The notes beneath the pieces are model-generated. The model did not search any database and had not been told where the DNA came from. It worked only from the letters and a program-made list of their open reading frames with translations. A DNA stretch of 64,000 bases, taken from NCBI GenBank assembly GCA_030729925.1, contig JANQWK010000078.1:1-64000 (forward strand), given 5' to 3'. The stretch comes from Saprospiraceae bacterium. GTDB taxonomy: Bacteria; Bacteroidota; Bacteroidia; Chitinophagales; Saprospiraceae. Below, one piece after another: positions 4,760-63,315 of this stretch (positions are counted from its first letter, which is position 1; each line of letters starts with the position of its first letter). Position numbers and translations under genes: made by a program.

Positions 4760-4913
4760 ATGTCTCTAACAATTTTCGATATTTCACCTTGCTGGCATGC
4801 AGAAGTATGCTCCAAAACAGTAATGGCCATTTTTTCTGTCTTGGTGGAATATTTTTTCCTTACATTTAGTGGCGATTTTACAAAATTACCAACGGTAATC
4901 AAGTCAAAGCAAA

Positions 4914-6386
4914 ATGAAAAACACCCGACAAGTAGGACTCATCCTGGGGCCTGTGCTATTTTTTTTGATTAGAATGAGTTTTTACCCGGATGGGGTAAGC
5001 GCCGAAGCGAATGCTGTTTTTGCCACTACGGTCTGGATGGCAGTATGGTGGATTACAGAAGCAGTTGCTATTGAGGTTACGGCCTTGTTGCCCGTGGTGT
5101 TGTTTCCTTTGACAGGGGCGCTTCCTTTGGCTCAAACGACGGTTACCTACGGTGATAAGTACGTATTTTTATATATGGGGGGCTTTATGTTGGCTATTGC
5201 CATCGAAAAGTGGAACCTACACAGGAGAATCGCATTGAATATTATTCGACTGATCGGTACAGATGTAAAAAAAATTATCCTGGGCTTTATGGTAGCTACG
5301 GGGTTTATGTCTATGTGGATTTCTAATACGGCTACAGCTGTGATGATGCTACCTATTGCGATGGCCATTGTAAAACAGCTGGAGGATAATCCGGATACCG
5401 TAGAGAATGAAAATCTGGTTTTTGGTAAGGCGCTGATGTTGGCTATTGCCTACAGTGCTTCGATCGGCGGAATTGCTACGTTGATTGGAACTCCGCCTAA
5501 CTTGGTATTGGCTAGTGTGGTAAAAGAACTTTACGGCATTGAAATCTCTTTTGCGGAGTGGATGATGGTAGGTCTTCCGATAGCAGTTGGCTTGTTGTTC
5601 CTTACTTGGTATTACCTGACTAACTTTGCTTTCGCCTTTCGGCAAAAAAGTTTTCCGGGAGGGCGAGAAGAAATCAACAGGCAACTGAAAAGCCTGGGTA
5701 AGATTTCTTACGAAGAGGTGTTGGTGTTGATTGTTTTTGTATTGATGGCACTGGCTTGGATTACCCGCTCTTTTTTATTGAAAAAATGGATTCCGGCGCT
5801 GGACGATACCCTGATTGCAATGATAGGCGCAATCGTGTTGTTTATGCTTCCTACTAAAGCAGCCGGGCAGAAGATTTTGGATTGGAAGAGTGCTGTTAAG
5901 CTCCCTTGGGGGATCTTGTTGTTGTTTGGGGGAGGACTCGCGCTGGCCGAAGGTTTTACTTCGAGTGGATTGGCTGACTGGATTGGCGGACAGATGACTT
6001 TGCTGGCAGGGGTACAGATTCTTTTGCTGGTGCTTATTTTGGTAACTGCCGTGAATTTTTTGACCGAGGTTACCTCCAACCTGGCTACGACAGCGATGCT
6101 GCTGCCTATTTTGGCTCCTATGGCTGTATCCATTAATGTACACCCTTATTTGTTGCTGGTTCCGGCAACCTTGGCAGCGTCCTGCGCGTTCATGCTTCCC
6201 GTTGCAACGCCACCTAATGCAGTAGTTTTTGGGTCGGGGTATCTCAGGATCCCGGATATGGTGCGCACGGGAGTAGCGTTGAATGTTTTATCTATTATCA
6301 TCGTGAGCCTGTTGGTGTATTTTCTGCTTCCCCTGATCTGGGGTTTTGAGCCGGTACCGTTTCCGGAGGCGTTTAAGTCGGAGTAA
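4914..6386 (+). CDS. SLC13/DASS family sodium:anion (dicarboxylate) symporter
   Basis: A 490-residue inner membrane protein with about 12 hydrophobic segments. Two copies of the family's anion/sodium motif are visible: S-N-T-A-T-A-V-M-M with I-G-T-P-P-N-L-V in the first half, and S-N-L-A-T-T-A-M-L-L-P with V-A-T-P-P-N-A in the second. Such proteins bring in succinate, malate, citrate or sulfate with sodium. Overall layout is closest to the SdcS/bacterial dicarboxylate type, but the substrate is inferred only. It faces the TIGR04076 gene tail to tail with a 9-bp gap and no clear terminator. Confidence 0.9.
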   Translation: MKNTRQVGLILGPVLFFLIRMSFYPDGVSAEANAVFATTVWMAVWWITEAVAIEVTALLPVVLFPLTGALPLAQTTVTYGDKYVFLYMGGFMLAIAIEKWNLHRRIALNIIRLIGTDVKKIILGFMVATGFMSMWISNTATAVMMLPIAMAIVKQLEDNPDTVENENLVFGKALMLAIAYSASIGGIATLIGTPPNLVLASVVKELYGIEISFAEWMMVGLPIAVGLLFLTWYYLTNFAFAFRQKSFPGGREEINRQLKSLGKISYEEVLVLIVFVLMALAWITRSFLLKKWIPALDDTLIAMIGAIVLFMLPTKAAGQKILDWKSAVKLPWGILLLFGGGLALAEGFTSSGLADWIGGQMTLLAGVQILLLVLILVTAVNFLTEVTSNLATTAMLLPILAPMAVSINVHPYLLLVPATLAASCAFMLPVATPPNAVVFGSGYLRIPDMVRTGVALNVLSIIIVSLLVYFLLPLIWGFEPVPFPEAFKSE

Positions 6387-6395
6387 AAAGCTGTC

Positions 6396-6749
6396 TTAGG
6401 GTTGCCATTCGACAGGACTGACATCATCGTGGTTGAGGATGCGCGATCCTGTGCGGTCAATGCGCATGATCAACTGACAGGCGGGGTCAGGGCAAATGAC
6501 CCGTGCATCGGTTTCCATCCAGTCGGCGGGATGGTTGTTCCTTTGTTTGGCCGGCAATAGTGGAATACAGGATTGCAGCGCATACAGACAAAAATTCCCA
6601 CCTTCCGGCAGAGATAGTTTTCCGCTCTTGAGGAAAAAACGATCTCCAACGCTCATGTCGCAGGTACAATGTCCGTTGATTTGCTCCACAACTATCTCGA
6701 GATCGTGTAGTTGAAATTGGTCGGGTCGGAGGTTTTCTTTATACGGCAT
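6396..6749 (-). CDS. TIGR04076 family protein
   Basis: A 117-residue cytoplasmic protein resembling TIGR04076. It has G-D-R-F-F-L-K-S-G-K, P-E-G-x-N-F-C-L-Y-A, a tryptophan-containing segment and V-I-C-P-D-P-A-C; its cysteines could bind metal or a cluster. The function of the family is unknown. I placed the start at the ATG at 6749 (11-bp overlap with nhaC). An ATG at 6797 is also in frame and is preceded by AGGAG, which would give 133 residues and a 59-bp overlap. It is the last gene of the minus-strand run that starts with the SDR gene. Confidence 0.72.
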   Translation of the reverse strand: MPYKENLRPDQFQLHDLEIVVEQINGHCTCDMSVGDRFFLKSGKLSLPEGGNFCLYALQSCIPLLPAKQRNNHPADWMETDARVICPDPACQLIMRIDRTGSRILNHDDVSPVEWQP

Positions 6750-8160
6750 GGGTCTGAAGTTTTGAGGGATCTGGATTTTGATCGGCTTTCCGGCCATAAG
6801 CTCCTACTATGGTAAGCAAAAGCATGATGAGCAGCCCCCAGGCTACAAAGTTAAATAGCCCTGCTTGCAGGGTGTTAACAGGTGCTACGCCAAAGTCGGC
6901 TCCGCTGCTGCTGGTGTTGGCCATGAGGATGACAGGGATGAAGTAAGGCAACAAAAATGGAAATACACATACCACCATACTGAGTATATTGGCTCTTCTG
7001 ACGGGACTGAGCCCCATTTTTTCACCAGTATGCCGGGCAAATTCAGTTACCATTAGAATGGCCACAATACTATGGGTAGTGAGTAACACTGCGCCGCCTG
7101 CGGTGGCAGCTATCCAGGATTCGGCGTGGAGCGGCCTTTGGGTTCGATTCGAGGCAAAACCAACCAGGCGGTCAACTAAGCCACTACTTTTTAGGGTGGC
7201 TACCATGCCCATCAGTAAAATCGTGAAAAAACTTATTCCTACTGCCCGATTGATGCCATCAATGATGAAACTCCTGGCAGTAAAGTTTTCCCGATCCAGG
7301 CTGAGTAGTTTTTCCGGAGGAAGCAGCCCCGTTAGTAGCCCCAGTATTGTACCGAAGATCAAGCCGCCAAGCAGTCCGTGGAAGAGGTGCTTGCCCCTCA
7401 AGAAAAGGAATAAGATGAACACCGGGACGAGTAACATAGGCATACCTGCAGGATCGCCACTTATGCCTTGCTGTATGGCTTCGCTTTTTTCCATGAAAAA
7501 ATAATTGCTCATCGGGTAGGCGATCATCGCTACCGCGAGTACAGGGAGGATGTATTTCAACCTGCTTCTGACAGCCCTACCCAATTCAGCATCCTGGCTA
7601 AGGGCACTGGCAATGGTGGTGTCCGATATGGGAGCGGTAAAGTCCCCAAAGGTTGCTCCTCCAATGATGGCTCCCGCAAGGGTAGGCAGATGCGCACCCA
7701 GCATGCCACCCGCAGGATAAAGGATGGGACTGCAAATGAGGATGGTGGCAAAGCTGGATCCTGTGGAGAGGGAAACGATGCAACATATTACAAAAGTAGC
7801 GAGTACAAATCCAGTCCCGGAGAGATTCATTTGGGCAGCGAGCCAGGAAAGGGCTTCGACAAAGCCGGTAAGGGTCATGAGTACGCCAATGACAGAGGCG
7901 AGCATCCAGGCCGTTATCATGATCATGACAATGGGCTGCGACATGCCTTCGATGAGTACCTGACTGTAGCGGTTTTTGTCCTTTGAGAGTAATAGCCCCA
8001 GTGCGAGTGCAGCAAGGAGTACGGGCCAGAAACCCTTTTCATCGGGCGCACCGGAAAGAGCTATGGCAATCACGCCACCGACAAACAACAAAAAAGGTAA
8101 GAGTGCTCCCATGGCTTTTCCGTGAAAAGCTAAGGGTGGGTGAATAGTCTCGGTACTCAT
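6739..8160 (-). CDS. nhaC: NhaC family Na+/H+ antiporter
   Basis: A 473-residue polytopic membrane protein with about 11-12 hydrophobic segments. It has the NhaC hallmark G-D-F-x-A-P-I-S-D-T-T near residue 175 and S-x-S-T-G-S-S-F-A-T just before it. The family exchanges sodium for protons across the inner membrane, with some members also moving malate or lactate. Its ATG overlaps the stop of the aldo/keto reductase gene by 4 bp (ATGA), so the two are translationally coupled. The family call is firm; the ion and any organic co-substrate are inferred. Confidence 0.9.
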   Translation of the reverse strand: MSTETIHPPLAFHGKAMGALLPFLLFVGGVIAIALSGAPDEKGFWPVLLAALALGLLLSKDKNRYSQVLIEGMSQPIVMIMITAWMLASVIGVLMTLTGFVEALSWLAAQMNLSGTGFVLATFVICCIVSLSTGSSFATILICSPILYPAGGMLGAHLPTLAGAIIGGATFGDFTAPISDTTIASALSQDAELGRAVRSRLKYILPVLAVAMIAYPMSNYFFMEKSEAIQQGISGDPAGMPMLLVPVFILFLFLRGKHLFHGLLGGLIFGTILGLLTGLLPPEKLLSLDRENFTARSFIIDGINRAVGISFFTILLMGMVATLKSSGLVDRLVGFASNRTQRPLHAESWIAATAGGAVLLTTHSIVAILMVTEFARHTGEKMGLSPVRRANILSMVVCVFPFLLPYFIPVILMANTSSSGADFGVAPVNTLQAGLFNFVAWGLLIMLLLTIVGAYGRKADQNPDPSKLQTHAV

Positions 8161-16596: not shown

Positions 16597-16929
16597 ACCT
16601 TAAAAGTTGGCTTTTCAAAAGATGGAGAAACGGATTATAAGGTACGCAAAACTTTTTTTTGGTGAAAGCCTGAGCCTTTTGCTTTAGTCCCAATTTCTCA
16701 TTTTTCAAGGAAATAGATAGGATATAGGTCTTAGTTTACCACTATCGCGAGTGTTTGGCACTTTGAAACAGGGGTAAAATGAGGTTACTTTTTAGGATGT
16801 CGGGGTATTAATAAGGGTAATCAGGTGCAAGTCACCTTAAGGTGCCTTGCACCTGAGTTTTAAATAATTGAAAATCATTTATTTGTGTTAAAAAATTTAT
16901 GCTATTCCCCCGTTTTTCGAATTTATGGG
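16597..16929. other. 333-bp intergenic region with repeat copy 3
   Basis: No gene is seen between the LysR gene and the DUF5107 gene. The region holds palindromic repeat copy 3 with its upstream conserved block (GGTTACTTTTTAGG..., then TTAATAAGGGTAAT) and downstream A/T-rich flank. The promoter of the DUF5107-glycosidase pair should be near 16600-16700, but I cannot point to a convincing element. Confidence 0.6.
16822..16855 (+). repeat. Dispersed palindromic repeat, copy 3
   Basis: The palindrome reads CAGGTGCAAGTCACC, TTAA, GGTGCCTTGCACCTG, with one mismatched pair. Conserved sequence extends upstream from about 16777 (GGTTACTTTTTAGG, then ATTAATAAGGGTAAT directly before the palindrome) and downstream to about 16880. 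The plus orientation is defined by that upstream block. Confidence 0.9.
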
Positions 16930-32601: not shown

Positions 32602-32865
32602 AAAACCACTGCCTGAACGAAGGGGTTAAGGCACAAATTGTAGTCAGAAAAACCTTACTTACCCTTAGTCAGATATCCGAGTGATTATTATAGGTTGTTT
32701 TCGTATCCATTGAAAATTAACCTGTTTCTGATTTCACTGATAGTATAACAACATTCGTGCCAAGCTTGTGATTGGCGTGAAAAAGTTCTTTGGAAGTAGG
32801 GGGGTAGAAAATAACCTTTTAAAGAGGGTTACTTTTTAGAGATTGGTGGGATTAATAAGGGTAAT

Positions 32866-32899
32866 CAGGTGCAAGGCACCTTAAGGTGCCTTGCACCTG
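32866..32899 (+). repeat. Dispersed palindromic repeat, copy 4 (perfect palindrome)
   Basis: The arms CAGGTGCAAGGCACC and GGTGCCTTGCACCTG around TTAA pair without a mismatch over the full 34 bp. Conserved flanks: GGTTACTTTTTAGAG and ATTAATAAGGGTAAT upstream from about 32827, and ATTCTTAAATCACTGATTATCA-like sequence downstream to about 32921. It lies between the convergent hsp20 and DUF3109 genes. Confidence 0.92.
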
Positions 32900-32949
32900 A
32901 TTCTTAAATCACTGATTATCAAATTTTTGAATTAAAAACTTACCTTGTT

Positions 32950-54960: not shown

Positions 54961-55590
54961 ATGTTGTTCGATGCTTTAGACAAGTATGTTTCTGAATTGG
55001 GTACCGTAGTGGAGGCACTTCATCCGGATCGAAAGGCGCTGCTGGATCATTTTGCAGGAATGATCGTGCTGGCGCACAAAAAAGGCGATGTGCGGTTGGT
55101 TTTTATTTGTACGCACAACTCGCGCAGGAGTCACTTGGCTCAGGTTTGGGCGACTTCCATGGCTAAGTTTTTTGGGCTTGACGGTATTTATTCTTGGTCG
55201 GGTGGTACGGAAGTGACTGCTTTTCATCCCAACGCGATTGCAGCGTTGAGAAGAGCAGGTTTTAGCGTAGCTGATGCTGAAGGGAAAAACCCGGTTTACG
55301 AGGTTCGGTATTCGGAATATGCGCCTCCGATAGGGTGTTTTTCCAAGGTCTATGATCACCCTGACAACCCTTCCCGGGATTTTGGGGCAGTCATGACGTG
55401 TTCGGATGCCGATGAAAACTGTCCGATTGTTTCCGGAGCTTCCTGGCGTTTGTCGTTGACCTATGACGACCCTAAGCTGTCGGATGGCACGCCGGAAGAA
55501 GCTGCGGTTTATGACGCCCGGGTGAAAGAGATTGGTGCGGAGCTTTGGTATGTGATGGATAAAGTTCGCCAAATGATAACCACGATATGA
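54961..55590 (+). CDS. LMW-phosphatase-type arsenate reductase-like protein (cytoplasmic)
   Basis: A 209-residue protein with the same domain as its neighbour: C50-T-H-N-S-R-R-S loop, F-S-x-x-Y-D-H-P-D-N-P, C-S-D-A-D-E-N-C and T-Y-D-D-P. It has no signal peptide, so it should work in the cytoplasm, where it could reduce arsenate to arsenite for export. The reduction would use the loop cysteine and other cysteines (C-S-D-A-D-x-x-C). Its stop overlaps the ATG of the ACR3 gene by 4 bp, which supports coupled action. Confidence 0.88.
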
Positions 55591-56618
55591 AAAAACGGCT
55601 TTCTTTTCTCGACAGGTATTTGACCATTTGGATCTTGACTGCTATGCTTGTAGGTGTTGCCATTGGATATTTTTTGCCGCAGGCGTCAACCGTTATACAG
55701 TCTTTCCGGCGTGGCACCACCAATATTCCGATAGCGATTGGTTTGATTTTGATGATGTATCCGCCTTTAGCGCGGGTGGACTATCAGTTACTGCCCAAGG
55801 TGTTTAAAAATGTACGCATTCTGGGTTTGTCGCTGGCACTCAATTGGATCATAGGGCCATTGCTGATGTTTGTTTTGGCTATTATTTTTCTGCGCGATTA
55901 CCCGGAGTACATGACGGGTTTGATTTTGATTGGCTTGGCGCGATGTATAGCGATGGTCATTGTGTGGAACGACTTGGCAGACGGGAGTCCGGAGTACGGG
56001 GCGGGATTGGTGGCTGTAAACAGTATTTTTCAGGTGTTTTTCTACAGCTTTTATGCTTGGGTTTTTGTGACGGTGTTGCCGCCGTTTTTTGGTCTGGAAG
56101 GAGCGATTGTGGATATATCCATCCTGACGGTGGCCGAAAGCGTATTGATCTATCTGGGCATACCGTTTTTGGCGGGTATATTGAGTCGCGTGCTGCTGGT
56201 GCGTTGGAAAGGAATAGCTTGGTACCAGCAGACTTTTATTCCGACGATCAGTCCGCTCACTTTGTTGGCCTTATTGTTTACCATTGTGGTCATGTTTAGC
56301 CTTAAAGGTGAGTTGATTGTCAACATACCCGGCGACGTATTGCGCATTGCAATCCCTTTGGTCATCTATTTTTTGGTGATGTTTTTGCTGAGTTTTTTCA
56401 TCGGAAAGGCTTTGGGGGCGGATTATCCGCGCAACACAGCGATTGCGTTTACGGCTGCCGGCAATAACTTTGAGTTGGCCATAGCGGTAGCCATCGGCGT
56501 CTTTGGCATATCGTCCGGACAAGCATTTGCGGGAGTGATCGGGCCGCTGGTAGAAGTCCCTGCACTCATTGCGTTGGTTCAGGTCGCTTATCGCTTAAAA
56601 AGAGTGTATTACGCGTAG
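55587..56618 (+). CDS. acr3: ACR3 family arsenite efflux transporter
   Basis: A 343-residue membrane protein with about 10 hydrophobic segments. It carries the ACR3 hallmarks M-M-Y-P-P-L-A near residue 57, G-L-A-R-C120-I-A-M-V-I-V-W-N with the essential cysteine, and [14 protein letters not shown] in the second half. It exports arsenite using the proton-motive force. It overlaps the preceding reductase-like gene by 4 bp and is the last gene of the operon. Confidence 0.96.
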
Positions 56619-58508: not shown

Positions 58509-58601
58509 TTTTGGTATTTTTTATCAGCAAAAAATTGGGTTAAAAAAAACCTGCTCTTTGTGGTTACTTTCGGAGGGGGTGGAGGAATTAATAAGGGTAA
58601 T

Positions 58602-58635
58602 CAGGTGCAAGGCACTTTAAGGTGCCTTGCACCTG
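58602..58635 (+). repeat. Dispersed palindromic repeat, copy 6
   Basis: The arms are CAGGTGCAAGGCACT and GGTGCCTTGCACCTG around TTAA (one inner G-U-type pair). The upstream block (GGTTACTTTCGG, ATTAATAAGGGTAAT) and the downstream ATTCA...CACTGAATTTCA flank are present. It lies between the DUF885 and rrf2-type genes. Confidence 0.9.
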
Positions 58636-58690
58636 ATTCAAAAAACACTGAATTTCAGCAATTTAAATAATATACGACCACCAAATTGCT

Positions 58691-59098
58691 ATGATCTCAA
58701 AAAAAATGAAATACGCACTGAAGGCACTGCTCTTCATTGCAGCGCAGGAAGGCGAACAGGTGAAGACGAAGGATATTGCCGAGCAGGCCATGATCCCTAA
58801 AAAATTCTTGGAACAGATTCTGTTGGAACTCAAAAAAGGGGGGATTATTGCCAGCAGACAGGGCAACACCGGAGGATATTATTTTCTCAAAAAACCTTCG
58901 GAGGTTTCGGTTGCAGATGTGTACCGACTTATTGACGGCCCCATAGCACTCATATCCTGCATCTCAAAAAATTTCTACGAACCTTGTTCGGATTGTCCCG
59001 ATGAAGCTTCCTGTACGATTCGTCAGACTATGCTCGAAGTTAGGGATCAAACCCTTGCTGTTATGGAAAAAACCAGCATAGCAGATATGATGAATTAA
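58691..59098 (+). CDS. Rrf2 family transcriptional regulator
   Basis: A 135-residue Rrf2-type winged-helix regulator. The start M-I-S-K-K-M-K-Y-A-L-K-A-L, the recognition region I-P-K-K-F-L-E-Q-I-L, and the wing S-R-Q-G-N-T-G-G-Y are typical. Four cysteines (C90, C99, C102, C108) lie in the region where IscR/RirA-type members hold an iron-sulfur cluster, but the spacing is not that of classic IscR. It is followed by the yeiH-like gene, with a candidate operator between. Confidence 0.92.
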   Translation: MISKKMKYALKALLFIAAQEGEQVKTKDIAEQAMIPKKFLEQILLELKKGGIIASRQGNTGGYYFLKKPSEVSVADVYRLIDGPIALISCISKNFYEPCSDCPDEASCTIRQTMLEVRDQTLAVMEKTSIADMMN

Positions 59099-59101
59099 CA
59101 A

Positions 59102-59122
59102 ATTCTACTAATCTTATAGAAT
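59102..59122. promoter_or_regulatory. Candidate Rrf2 operator before yeiH
   Basis: An inverted repeat ATTCTA-N9-TAGAAT whose spacer begins CTAAT. Nearly the same 21-bp sequence lies at 60612-60632 before the TlpA-like gene, and I saw no third copy in the window. Its place right after the rrf2 gene suggests a site for that regulator. Confidence 0.5.
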
Positions 59123-59236
59123 AAATAAAAAATAATTTTAACTTCGCGGAAATCGTACAAAACTTGGACATGAGTTAGTGTGCATGACTTGTATGTGGCT
59201 AATTAACGATGGTGTAACGAGACAAATAGTTAGGAT

Positions 59237-60553
59237 ATGGAAGTTGGTTTGGAAAGCAAGGCCAAGCGGGAGGGTGTATCGGAGGATATGCGTGCATTGG
59301 GAATAGGGGGATTGCTTATTTTGGGGGTTTGGGGTGTAGCGTTTATTTTTCCGGATCTGGTTTTTCCCCGGATTGATTTTTCCTGGTCGGATGCAGAGGA
59401 TTTGTTGGGAAAGGTATTGAGCTGGAATCAGTTTTATTTTTTGGTTTTTTCTGGTCTGTTATTTGGCGGGTTGCTTGGAGCGGTACAGGTTTTTTCGGGA
59501 GGGGTATCGGGGACTTTTGTCAAGCAATTTGTAGTCATATATCTACTGGCCATTGCATCGCTGGTGATTGCAGGTCAGGCGGGTATAGATGCCTGGGGGA
59601 TAGAATACGTTTTGGTTGCGCTGGCACTTGGGTTGGTAGGTAGCAATTTGTTGGGGATCCACTTAGCTGGTGTTGCACAGGCCGAATTTTATATCAAAAC
59701 GGGACTGGTGATTATGGGTAGTGGGATGCTTTTTGGCGACTTGTTACAGGCTGGGGTGGCGGGTATGCTGCAAGCCTTGGCAGTGGTGGGGGTGGTTTGG
59801 ATATTTTCTTTGTGGCTATCGCGAAAACTGGGGATAGATGATGAATTTGGAGTGATATTGGCTTCGGCTGTTTCTATTTGTGGGGTTTCGGCGGCGATTG
59901 TAGCAGCCGGAGCCATTCAGGGTGACAAGAAGAAACTATCTTATGTCACGACGCTCGTTTTGTTGGTAGCCATACCAATGCTTATTTTTCAGCCGTGGCT
60001 GGCTCAGTTGTTCGAAATACCCCCGCTGGTAGCAGGCGCTTGGCTTGGGGGTACACTTGATACAACGGCATCAGTAGCTGCTGCGACAGAGATATTGGGG
60101 CCGGCAGCGACCAAAGTAGGAATTGTTGTAAAATTTTCACAAAATGTGCTGATTGGTGTGGCAGCATTTTTTATTGCGACCTGGTGGGTGCTGAGAAAAA
60201 AGCCAGCGCAAGAGGCTGATCCGGTGTCCAAACCTGGATTTGGTGTAATTTGGGAGCGATTTCCCAAGTTTATCCTTGGCTTCCTGGCTGCTGCACTGGT
60301 CAGTTCTTTTTTCGTACCTGGCGAAATTACCAGTCAAACAGGCGCTTTTTTGAAGTCGCTTCAAAAAATATGGTTTGCATTGGCTTTTGTCGCTATTGGT
60401 CTGGAAGCCAGGTTTGCCGAGCTTTGGCAGCTCCAAGGCGGCAAACCAGCGCTCGCTTTCATAACAGCTCAGTTTTTTAACATCGCGTGGACGCTGCTTT
60501 GGGCCTATTTGTTGTTTGGTGGGTATCTGCTCGATCCCCCCTCGATTCAATGA
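59237..60553 (+). CDS. YeiH-type putative sulfate/sulfur-compound exporter
   Basis: A 438-residue membrane protein with about 11 hydrophobic segments. It matches the YeiH family (Cons_hypoth698): residues about 85-330 include V-G-S-N-L-L-G, F-Y-I-K-T-G-L-V-I-M-G, S-I-C-G-V-S-A-A-I-V-A-A-G and T-L-D-T-T-A-S-V-A-A-A. The family is annotated as a putative sulfate exporter on limited evidence. An extra N-terminal stretch with one or two more membrane segments precedes the core. The Rrf2 gene next door and a thioredoxin-like gene downstream hint at sulfur handling. Confidence 0.88.
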   Translation: MEVGLESKAKREGVSEDMRALGIGGLLILGVWGVAFIFPDLVFPRIDFSWSDAEDLLGKVLSWNQFYFLVFSGLLFGGLLGAVQVFSGGVSGTFVKQFVVIYLLAIASLVIAGQAGIDAWGIEYVLVALALGLVGSNLLGIHLAGVAQAEFYIKTGLVIMGSGMLFGDLLQAGVAGMLQALAVVGVVWIFSLWLSRKLGIDDEFGVILASAVSICGVSAAIVAAGAIQGDKKKLSYVTTLVLLVAIPMLIFQPWLAQLFEIPPLVAGAWLGGTLDTTASVAAATEILGPAATKVGIVVKFSQNVLIGVAAFFIATWWVLRKKPAQEADPVSKPGFGVIWERFPKFILGFLAAALVSSFFVPGEITSQTGAFLKSLQKIWFALAFVAIGLEARFAELWQLQGGKPALAFITAQFFNIAWTLLWAYLLFGGYLLDPPSIQ

Positions 60554-60611
60554 CCTTTTTTCCTGCTTTTTTAGTTTTGGCTTTCTCGCCGGTATATTTT
60601 TTGCATTTTTA

Positions 60612-60632
60612 ATTCTACTAATTTTATAGAAA
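60612..60632. promoter_or_regulatory. Candidate Rrf2 operator before TlpA-like gene
   Basis: The sequence ATTCTA-N9-TAGAAA differs from the site at 59102-59122 at two positions. It lies 17 bp before the ATG, in position to block transcription. Confidence 0.5.
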
Positions 60633-60648
60633 AAATATAATTAAAAAA

Positions 60649-61899
60649 ATGAAACAACTAATTTTTACCCTTTTCTTTGTTGGATGGTATTGTTTTGCCG
60701 AAGGCCAGGAAAAAAACACCTTATGGCGGGGTGAATTTGAGATTGGCGAGATGCGTATTCCTTTTCGGTTTGAGCTATTAGATAGTGCTGATGATCGTGG
60801 GTTTGTAGTATTTGTGAATGGTTTGCGCCGCGACAGTTTTTCTTTTTCCCGACAGGGAGATCTTATCCACATTGACCTTTCTCTGTATGATGCGGAGATT
60901 CGGGCGAGCGAGGGGATTACGGGGCAACTTTCGGGATGGTATAGAAGGCAAACGGTTTCAGGTACACAGCAATTGTCTTTTATCGCTCATCCCTTGCAGG
61001 TTGTGGATTCCGTGGGGGCGACTGATATTGTGTTATCAGGTCAGTGGACATTAGCCGTAAATGGAGAAGATCAGGCTCGGGTGTTGTTGCTGGAGCAAAG
61101 CGGAAAGCGACTGAGGGGGGTGGTTCATACGGTGACGGGGGATAGCCGGGAATTGGAAGGCGAGCTTACTGATAGTAGTTTTTACCTGAGCGGCTTTACC
61201 GGATCAAAACCGGTGTATTTGAGCGGAAAGCTGTTGCCCGAGGGAGCACTGGAAGGTCGTTTGGGTTGGGAGCCGGATCGGATTCATGCTTTTGCAGGCC
61301 AGCGATCAGCGGCGGGTGCATCCATCTTACCGGATCCTTACCATCTTACCTCGCTAAAGCCGGAATTTGACAACATTGACTTTTCCTTCCCGGATCTGGA
61401 GGGTCGGATGGTCAGTCTGTCCGACGAACAATTTCGCGACAAGGTCGTCGTCATCGAAATTCTGGGTTCCTGGTGCCCGAACTGCATTGACCAGATTCGA
61501 TTTTTGGCCCCTTGGTACAGGGCGAATAAAGACCGCGGAGTAGCTATCATAGGGGTAGGCTTTGAGCTAAAAGACGACCTTGCATTTGCCCAAAAAACAC
61601 TTGGTAGGCTACGTGACCAGCTTGACATTACTTATCCCTTACTTTTTGGCGGTTATGCTGACAAAGCGCTTGCCGCTGAAAAATTCCCTGCACTTAGTCA
61701 GGTACTTGCTTTTCCTACCACGATCATTTTGGACAAAAAAGGTAATGTGCGTTACATCCATACGGGGTATGCCAGTGAAAGCACGGGAAACTATTATACA
61801 ACGTATATTAATGAGTTTAATGCTACCATTGATGCTTTGCTGAGCGAGCCTCGTCTGGACTTGGAAGGGCAAAGTCCTGTTTCGAATTTGAAAAATTAA
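60649..61899 (+). CDS. Exported TlpA-like thiol-disulfide protein
   Basis: A 416-residue exported protein with a signal peptide (about residues 1-18, ending A-E-G). Residues about 25-230 form a beta-rich region without a clear family. Residues about 240-400 are a TlpA/ResA-type thioredoxin fold with C276-P-N-C279 and a late cis-proline F-P-T-T. It should reduce or exchange disulfides in the periplasm. A copy of the candidate Rrf2 site just upstream suggests shared control with yeiH. Repeat copy 7 follows. Confidence 0.9.
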   Translation: MKQLIFTLFFVGWYCFAEGQEKNTLWRGEFEIGEMRIPFRFELLDSADDRGFVVFVNGLRRDSFSFSRQGDLIHIDLSLYDAEIRASEGITGQLSGWYRRQTVSGTQQLSFIAHPLQVVDSVGATDIVLSGQWTLAVNGEDQARVLLLEQSGKRLRGVVHTVTGDSRELEGELTDSSFYLSGFTGSKPVYLSGKLLPEGALEGRLGWEPDRIHAFAGQRSAAGASILPDPYHLTSLKPEFDNIDFSFPDLEGRMVSLSDEQFRDKVVVIEILGSWCPNCIDQIRFLAPWYRANKDRGVAIIGVGFELKDDLAFAQKTLGRLRDQLDITYPLLFGGYADKALAAEKFPALSQVLAFPTTIILDKKGNVRYIHTGYASESTGNYYTTYINEFNATIDALLSEPRLDLEGQSPVSNLKN

Positions 61900-61960
61900 T
61901 TTTCGAAAGCCTGTAAAAGGAGGTTACTTTTTAAGGTGTTGGGGGATTAATAAGGGTAAT

Positions 61961-61994
61961 CAGGTGCAAGGCACTTTAAGGTGCCTTGCACCTG
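61961..61994 (+). repeat. Dispersed palindromic repeat, copy 7
   Basis: The arms are CAGGTGCAAGGCACT and GGTGCCTTGCACCTG around TTAA, identical to copy 6 in the palindrome. The upstream block (GGTTACTTTTTAAGG, ATTAATAAGGGTAAT) and downstream ATTCATAAATATTTGATTATCA are conserved. It lies between the converging TlpA-like and glycerate kinase genes. Confidence 0.92.
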
Positions 61995-62076
61995 ATTCAT
62001 AAATATTTGATTATCATCATCTTGTTTGAGTAAAAAATATTAAAAACCCCAAAAACTCCCCTATTCCACTGAAAGA

Positions 62077-63213
62077 CTATTGGCGTCGAAGTTTCTCTTG
62101 AAGGGGTATTTTTTTTCCTATTTTTTGCAAGGTTGGGAGGGTATGAGCGATGGATGTCTCTATATCGGTGTGGTAATCCTGAACGGTAAAAATACTGTTT
62201 ACCCCTTGTTGTTTCAGGGCATCTGCTGATAAACGAGACTGGCCGCAGACCAGGTAGCATGGCTTTTGATGTTGACGGCAGCGTTGAACGATGCCGGATA
62301 GCAATTTGCCGTTAAAACTGGTTTCATCCACGCATCCTTCGCCGGCGATCACGGCATCTGCTTGCTGTATGGCGTTGTCTAAGTCTGTCATAGATAGGAT
62401 ATGCTGTGTTCCGGACTGTATTTGAGCGTTGAAAAAGGCCATGCAGCCGGCTCCAATGCCACCTGCTGCACCGGTTCCCGGGGTATCTGCTACATTTTTG
62501 TGTAGTTGTGTTTTCCACAGGTGGGCCAGATGCTGCATACCTGCATCTATGGCGGGTAGCGCTTCCAGGGGTATTCCCTTTTGTGGACCGAAAGCGAAAG
62601 TTGCACCCTGGGAGCCGCACAAAGGGTTACTCACGTCGCTTAACGCAATAAACTGTATATCAGAGAAAATACTTGTTTCAGGGATTTGGATGTTTGAGAT
62701 CAGGCGTAAGGTTGCGCCTGTCGGCAAAAAATAATTGCCCTGTGTGTCTTCAAAGCGAATGCCCAAAGCATGAGCCATTCCACAGCCGCCATCGTTCGTG
62801 GCACTTCCTCCAAGTCCCAAAAAAATTTTTCGTGCACCTTTGTTAATGGCATTTCTGAGCAATAGTCCCGTTCCCAAAGAAGTGGTGATTCGACCATCGC
62901 GCTCAAAGGGTCGTAGTTCCTGAATCCCCGATGCCTCTGCTACTCCAACCCAAGCAGTCGCCGTTGCGCTATGCCAGAGGTAAGCTGCTTTTGTTTTTCG
63001 CTGCAGCGCATCACAAGTTTCCACAACAACAGTTTCTCCCCAGCCCAATGCTTTGCCCAAAGCGATAAATCCGTCACCGCCATCACTTAGGGGGACAGAC
63101 TTTGTTGTCAGATTTACGCCTGATTGCCGGAGGCCCAAAGTGAGCGCATCACAAACTGCAGCTGCCGAAGCTGCATCCTTAAAACTGTCGGTACAAATAA
63201 GCCAATGCTGCAT
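62077..63213 (-). CDS. glxK: Glycerate kinase (GlxK/GarK family)
   Basis: A 378-residue glycerate 2-kinase of the GlxK/GarK family. Visible features are D-S-F-K-D-A-A-S-A near residue 10, L-S-D-G-G-D-G near 43, G-L-G-G-S-A-T-N-D-G-G near 133, and G-A-A-G-G-I-G-A-G near 255. It phosphorylates glycerate with ATP to feed glyoxylate/serine carbon into glycolysis. The start M-Q-H-W-L-I-C-T-D-S fits the family N-terminus. It stands alone between repeat copies 7 and 8. Confidence 0.94.
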   Translation of the reverse strand: MQHWLICTDSFKDAASAAAVCDALTLGLRQSGVNLTTKSVPLSDGGDGFIALGKALGWGETVVVETCDALQRKTKAAYLWHSATATAWVGVAEASGIQELRPFERDGRITTSLGTGLLLRNAINKGARKIFLGLGGSATNDGGCGMAHALGIRFEDTQGNYFLPTGATLRLISNIQIPETSIFSDIQFIALSDVSNPLCGSQGATFAFGPQKGIPLEALPAIDAGMQHLAHLWKTQLHKNVADTPGTGAAGGIGAGCMAFFNAQIQSGTQHILSMTDLDNAIQQADAVIAGEGCVDETSFNGKLLSGIVQRCRQHQKPCYLVCGQSRLSADALKQQGVNSIFTVQDYHTDIETSIAHTLPTLQKIGKKIPLQEKLRRQ

Positions 63214-63281
63214 GGGACAGAGTTTGGGAGTTTTGAGTAGAAAATTTTTTATTGATATATGAAAATCAGTGTGTTATTAAA

Positions 63282-63315
63282 CAGGTGCAAGGCACCTTAA
63301 GGTGACTTGCACCTA
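63282..63315 (-). repeat. Dispersed palindromic repeat, copy 8 (inverted)
   Basis: Read on the minus strand the palindrome is TAGGTGCAAGTCACC, TTAA, GGTGCCTTGCACCTG, and the conserved block (GGTTACTTTAT..., TTAATAGGGGTAAT) lies on its right at about 63317-63358, so this copy is inverted relative to copies 3-7. It lies in the 296-bp divergent gap between glycerate kinase and the GNAT gene, where promoters are expected. Confidence 0.88.

Follow-up and report, generated by a model that had tools for sequence, protein, structure and literature searches.

Sulfur assimilation is regulated by CysB in Proteobacteria and by CymR in Firmicutes. CymR, the cysteine regulator of Bacillus and Staphylococcus, has the Rrf2 fold, binds no Fe-S cluster and works together with CysK (PMC9338935). 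Other regulators of the Rrf2 family, those with three cysteines in their loop, do bind Fe-S clusters (PMC5863699). A cysteine loop placed between the DNA-binding domain and the dimer helix is found, together with the Rrf2 fold and a palindromic operator, in IscR, RirA and NsrR, which govern Fe-S assembly, iron or NO genes. In Salmonella, a sulfur-responsive activator of the LysR type, YeiE, governs the membrane protein YeiH, which gives resistance to sulfite (PMC12880088).

We analysed a 64-kb stretch of Saprospiraceae DNA, hereafter the window, in which an rrf2 gene (58691..59098, + strand) coding for a winged-helix regulator of 135 aa is followed on the same strand by yeiH (59237..60553, 438 aa) and by a gene for a TlpA-like protein (60649..61899, 416 aa). 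A predicted operator, to which no strand is assigned, stands before each of the last two genes. Operator 1, ATTCTACTAATCTTATAGAAT (59102..59122), lies 3 bp 3' of rrf2 and 114 bp 5' of yeiH, and operator 2, ATTCTACTAATTTTATAGAAA (60612..60632), is separated by 16 bp from the start codon of the tlpA-like gene. A preliminary description of the locus had placed all three genes correctly, and had noticed that the dyad before yeiH recurs with two changes before the TlpA-like gene. The two dyads are indeed the same at 19 of 21 bases, spacer included, with one of the two changes falling in an arm, and their likeness extends to 27 of 30 nt. Upstream of the locus, at 54961-56618, we also observed an ACR3 arsenite efflux gene, which scores above cut-off, and an arsenate-reductase-like gene, which stays below the cut-offs of the models.

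Assignments of the three proteins by Pfam and NCBIfam models are clear. The regulator belongs to the Rrf2 family (PF02082, 129.7 bits for a cut-off of 30, E 1e-37; TIGR00738, 118.4 bits for a cut-off of 73.3), and misses the models of the described members: it scores 65.4 bits with the CymR model NF047409 (cut-off 195) and falls far short with those of IscR (TIGR02010, 59.9 bits, cut-off 207.55), RirA (NF008886, 61.9 bits, cut-off 193) and NsrR (NF008240, 38 bits, cut-off 182). CymR is among the closest solved structures by sequence (3t8r, 2y75). The four clustered cysteines pointed out in the preliminary description form a loop, C90-x8-C99-x2-C102-x5-C108 (58958..59014, + strand), and all four are kept in the 25 close orthologues; at least three conserved loop cysteines are expected of an Fe-S Rrf2 protein. 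Their spacing is unlike that of IscR, RirA and NsrR, and their presence sets the window protein apart from the cluster-free CymR. The loop is probably a sensor, working through an Fe-S cluster or through its thiols. In a tree, the window Rrf2 was placed inside a supported clade of 22 rows (99/98), which is mostly transporter-linked.

The genome of the window has a second Rrf2 (G000:C19, locus L083, 93.7 bits), which lacks C90 and C99. Its gene ends a suf-like operon, in which sufS, sufE and a DUF59-like gene were recognised by eye (~4883-7396 in the rrf2-oriented sequence), and the protein probably regulates Fe-S assembly in this genome. The suf linkage that is typical of IscR belongs, in other words, to a different rrf2 gene than that of the window.

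YeiH is a membrane anion transporter and a divergent member of PF03601 (138.8 bits, E 2.5e-40, cut-off 24.5), reaching only 68.5 bits with TIGR00698, the putative sulfate exporter subfamily, whose cut-off is 232.6. No relative of it was found by sequence in the PDB. It had been taken for a putative sulfur-anion exporter: the anion transporter family holds, but export is not established, because importer-type families fill the slot after rrf2 in relatives (see below). As in Salmonella, a sulfur-responsive regulator would govern a YeiH membrane protein; that regulator is here an Rrf2 protein, whereas YeiE is of the LysR type, and the YeiH is a divergent one. The TlpA-like protein is of the thiol-handling type, as was proposed earlier. 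It has the TlpA/ResA fold (Redoxin/AhpC-TSA models PF08534 and PF00578, 54.8 and 50.8 bits, both above cut-off) with a CxxC motif, CPNC, read from the translation, and misses the ResA subfamily model (45 bits, cut-off 170). Its N terminus is signal-peptide-like, and an extra N-terminal domain is present.

The arms of the dyad, taken alone, are not significant. With up to 2 mismatches they match 5 times in the 64-kb window for 2.9 expected, a number reached in 17 of 100 shuffles, and they match at 57 places in the whole genome, where the reversed control matches at 68. When at most 1 mismatch is allowed, 3 places are seen in the genome for about 3-4 expected from the reversed-control ratio. The genome-wide count of arms, not being above its reversed control, was dropped as evidence. 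A looser family consensus, searched in ten genomes with as many as 3 mismatches allowed, gave mostly background and was rejected as well, and its match in G107:C243 falls inside a coding sequence. Since the arms occur at chance frequency, conservation was tested instead. Scored with a matrix trained solely on loci outside the family, operator 2 reaches 20.0 bits and is the top-scoring place of the window, operator 1 reaches 19.3 bits, and the next place in the 64 kb has 8.9. The preliminary description would have been refuted by a dyad common before unrelated genes: this condition applies to loose arm matches, but not to the full motif. Judged by sequence comparison, what goes beyond chance is the near-identity of the two sites including the spacer, their location before genes, and their conservation across genera and families.

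A close Rrf2 was found in 22 of 120 genomes of Saprospiraceae. Scanning the collection with an Rrf2 alignment of 6 rows as query brought in a further 80 named loci, which are mostly Flavobacteriaceae and mutually related; their genera include Flavobacterium, Algibacter, Seonamhaeicola, Maribacter, Thermoflavifilum and Flammeovirga. A site was counted when it scored at least 16 bits within 300 bp of rrf2. Such an operator is present at most 300 bp 3' of rrf2 in 63 of the 80 named loci, against 0 in shuffles and 1 of 80 on the 5' side. Because most of the named loci trained the matrix and are interrelated, the fair number is that of the held-out family loci, which were outside the training: 9 of 24 have the operator 3' of rrf2, and shuffles again 0. 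Loci without a strong site beside rrf2 (14 of the 24 family loci, 17 of the 80 named loci) count against the proposal, as do genome G107, in which yeiH follows rrf2 with no site between, and genome G073, whose rrf2 is not accompanied by a yeiH. The operator has the consensus core CTAYTAANTYNATAG. At its outer pairs 2-20 and 3-19, complementary bases occur more often than in shuffles (p 0.0005 or less, a value weakened by the kinship of the sites), and such symmetric covariation is what the operator of a dimer predicts. Eleven tlpA homologues have no site in front, and thus served as a negative control. Sites were also looked for, as a footprint, in front of the yeiH genes of other family genomes, and none was found there.

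Core sulfate-assimilation genes are present within 7 kb of rrf2 in 29 of the 80 named loci, and some sulfur gene of the seed set in 35. The neighbours are sulfur genes, unlike the Fe-S assembly, iron or NO genes that go with IscR, RirA and NsrR. The typical gene order is metX and metY, rrf2, the operator, and then cysH-cysD-cysN-sulfite reductase. Orthologues also lie beside cysJ-cysI, the gene 3' of rrf2 in L045 coding for a CysJ-type flavoprotein, and beside cysE-cysK, with a serine acetyltransferase and a cysteine-synthase-like enzyme in that position in L221. Predicted sites precede genes of the PAPS-reductase family in L126, L136 and L146, and sulfite reductase in L237. In other loci the gene 3' of rrf2 codes for a transporter, which may be of the SulP (L044), PiT/PHO4 (L084), TauE/SafE (L034, L036 and, in the same slot, L155), SLC13 (L225, L218, and L046, a fragment with a weak match) or chromate type (L195, L201), or a PBP-type ABC system (L160, L158). 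The transporter of L034 and L036 had been called DoxX-like by eye, wrongly, Pfam giving TauE/SafE. YeiH itself is encoded near rrf2 in G107 and G024, with 57-59% identity to the window YeiH. The gene after yeiH in G107, once taken for a TlpA, matches the outer-membrane alginate-export porin family. Among the loci examined, a tlpA-like gene adjoins rrf2 in that of the window alone, which counts against the proposal.

A TonB-dependent receptor gene is directly 3' of rrf2 in 26 of the 80 named loci. In L163, L182, L205 and similar Flavobacterium loci, and in L041, the genes that come after rrf2 and the operator code for a TonB-dependent receptor together with a DUF2490 protein; these two may form a pair that takes up a sulfur compound across the outer membrane.

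G073, a genome of the same genus as the window's, has rrf2 but, at that locus, neither yeiH nor the tlpA-like gene nor the hairpin repeats described below. Comparison of this locus (L032, G073:C238) with window positions 58691-63213 has rrf2 followed directly by a glycerate kinase gene. The yeiH-tlpA block has thus been gained or lost within the genus.

The hairpin repeat is a dispersed, near-perfect palindrome of 40 bp, AATCAGGTGCAAGGCACYTTAAGGTGCCTTGCACCTGATT, which occurs about once in every 10 kb of the stretches examined. Copies are located in the window at 16819-16858, 32863-32902, 58599-58638, 61958-61997 and about 63278-63314, and elsewhere at L082:9907, L083:7433 and L089:7760. It appears to be an unnamed element of the REP or MITE kind. 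The rrf2-yeiH-tlpA block is flanked by two copies in the same orientation, which are 86% alike over 85 nt.

The third place of the genome with at most 1 arm mismatch is located 49 bp before metY, the gene for O-acetylhomoserine sulfhydrylase (TIGR01326, 661.7 bits, cut-off 495.1). This site is weaker (15.0 bits) and has two mismatches to the full consensus, like background places, so that it is not unique by score alone; its position and its conservation support it as a predicted site. In G073, one site stands in front of that genome's metY, and another in front of a peroxiredoxin gene beside metX. Of 17 genomes, 7 have a predicted site before metY, among them G073 and that of the window. At six loci from other genera, the metY leader contains a SAM riboswitch (RF00162). 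The site lies upstream of this riboswitch in L094, L095, L096, L098 and L099, and in L100 just outside the scored stretch. Such an order of elements suggests a two-layer control of metY, by the operator and by the riboswitch downstream of it; in the genus of the window, no SAM riboswitch was found before metY.

As to the sulfur physiology of the window's genome, it encodes CysD (NF003587), with CysC-like and CysN-like genes alongside (by eye), and six SulP genes. Neither a CysH-type PAPS reductase nor a sulfite/nitrite reductase domain (NIR_SIR) was detected in this genome or in G073. The assembly being 99.8% complete, a real loss of CysH and sulfite reductase is likely, and sulfate activation probably serves sulfation. 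With these two enzymes not detectable, the regulon seems to have shrunk to metY, yeiH and the TlpA-like gene.

Genes, sites and neighbourhoods, compared across genomes, make it very likely that the window Rrf2 represents, at this locus, a regulator that controls sulfur acquisition in Bacteroidota, acting through the predicted dyad operator and probably sensing through its cysteine loop. The preliminary description had proposed a small sulfur or redox regulon under the adjacent Rrf2; comparative genomics supports it well, both by the metY site and by the same motif found beside orthologous rrf2 and sulfur genes. It had also called the combination unfamiliar. We found no description of a Bacteroidota Rrf2 sulfur regulator in the open-access literature, and Rrf2 is not mentioned in a paper on the F. 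psychrophilum transcriptome (PMC9723704). The locus is, however, less a local oddity than what appears to be a reduced version of a phylum-level system.

We infer that an Rrf2 dimer would bind the palindromic operator NNYCTAYTAANTYNATAGRNN and would, most likely, keep yeiH, the tlpA-like gene and metY repressed as long as reduced sulfur abounds, releasing them when sulfur is short or oxidised. Repression, rather than activation, fits the 16 bp between site 2 and the start codon. Sensing would most likely be done by the conserved four-cysteine loop, either with an Fe-S cluster or as a thiol switch. An Rrf2 fold would here be devoted to the control of sulfur uptake and assimilation, as it is in CymR. 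The same regulator and operator would, in relatives, govern the operon for sulfate reduction together with an anion transporter, which can be any one of several. The genus of the window has apparently lost sulfate reduction, and what would be left is sulfide incorporation by MetY, YeiH and a thiol protein.

Might the two dyads be due to chance, or be a functionless piece of a recently copied repeat? Their arms, taken alone, are no more frequent than expected by chance in either the window or the genome, and copies of the dispersed hairpin repeat bracket the region, but the dyad is unrelated to that repeat and has two strong copies only in the genome. Moreover, the same 21-mer stands beside rrf2 in other families with symmetric variation, and we regard this explanation as hardly credible. 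It is also improbable that the operator belongs to another regulator, for instance the second Rrf2, with the adjacent rrf2 a bystander and Fe-S status, instead of sulfur supply, as the signal. IscR-type regulators bind similar dyads, and the second Rrf2 does exist beside its suf-like operon. However, the operator accompanies orthologues of the window rrf2 and not the suf operon: no comparable site stands beside that operon (the best in its region, of 11.1 bits, is elsewhere in the stretch), and the genes neighbouring the operator belong to sulfur uptake and assimilation, not to suf.

Defence against sulfite or oxidative stress would give the same genes another meaning: Rrf2 would sense sulfite, electrophiles or oxidants, YeiH would export sulfite, and the TlpA-like protein and peroxiredoxin would repair thiols. 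Several observations point this way, among them the sulfite resistance conferred by Salmonella YeiH (PMC12880088), the response of S. aureus CymR to oxidation (PMC9338935), the occupation of the same slot by TauE/SafE in the three loci named above, the site borne by a peroxiredoxin gene in L044 as in G073, and the fact that a sulfite reductase to remove sulfite was not detected in the window's genome. Elsewhere, however, most operator-linked genes act in sulfate uptake and reduction or in methionine and cysteine synthesis, which a supply signal explains better. Stress defence thus appears rather unlikely to us, and the two readings can overlap.

Sulfur supply being our preferred signal for this regulator, a wider proposal can be put forward tentatively: the Rrf2 clade may be the missing master regulator of Bacteroidota sulfur assimilation, sensing supply by its cysteine loop (Fe-S), and controlling not only cys and met genes but also a transporter slot that many unrelated families occupy, in which YeiH and TauE would import sulfur anions instead of exporting them. 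Bacteroidota are prominent in soil, sea and gut, and we found no regulator of sulfur assimilation described for this phylum. The regulator, its operator and its predicted regulon are directly testable in laboratory strains of Flavobacterium, and sulfur transporters that are poorly understood, YeiH among them, could be assigned with the help of the operator.
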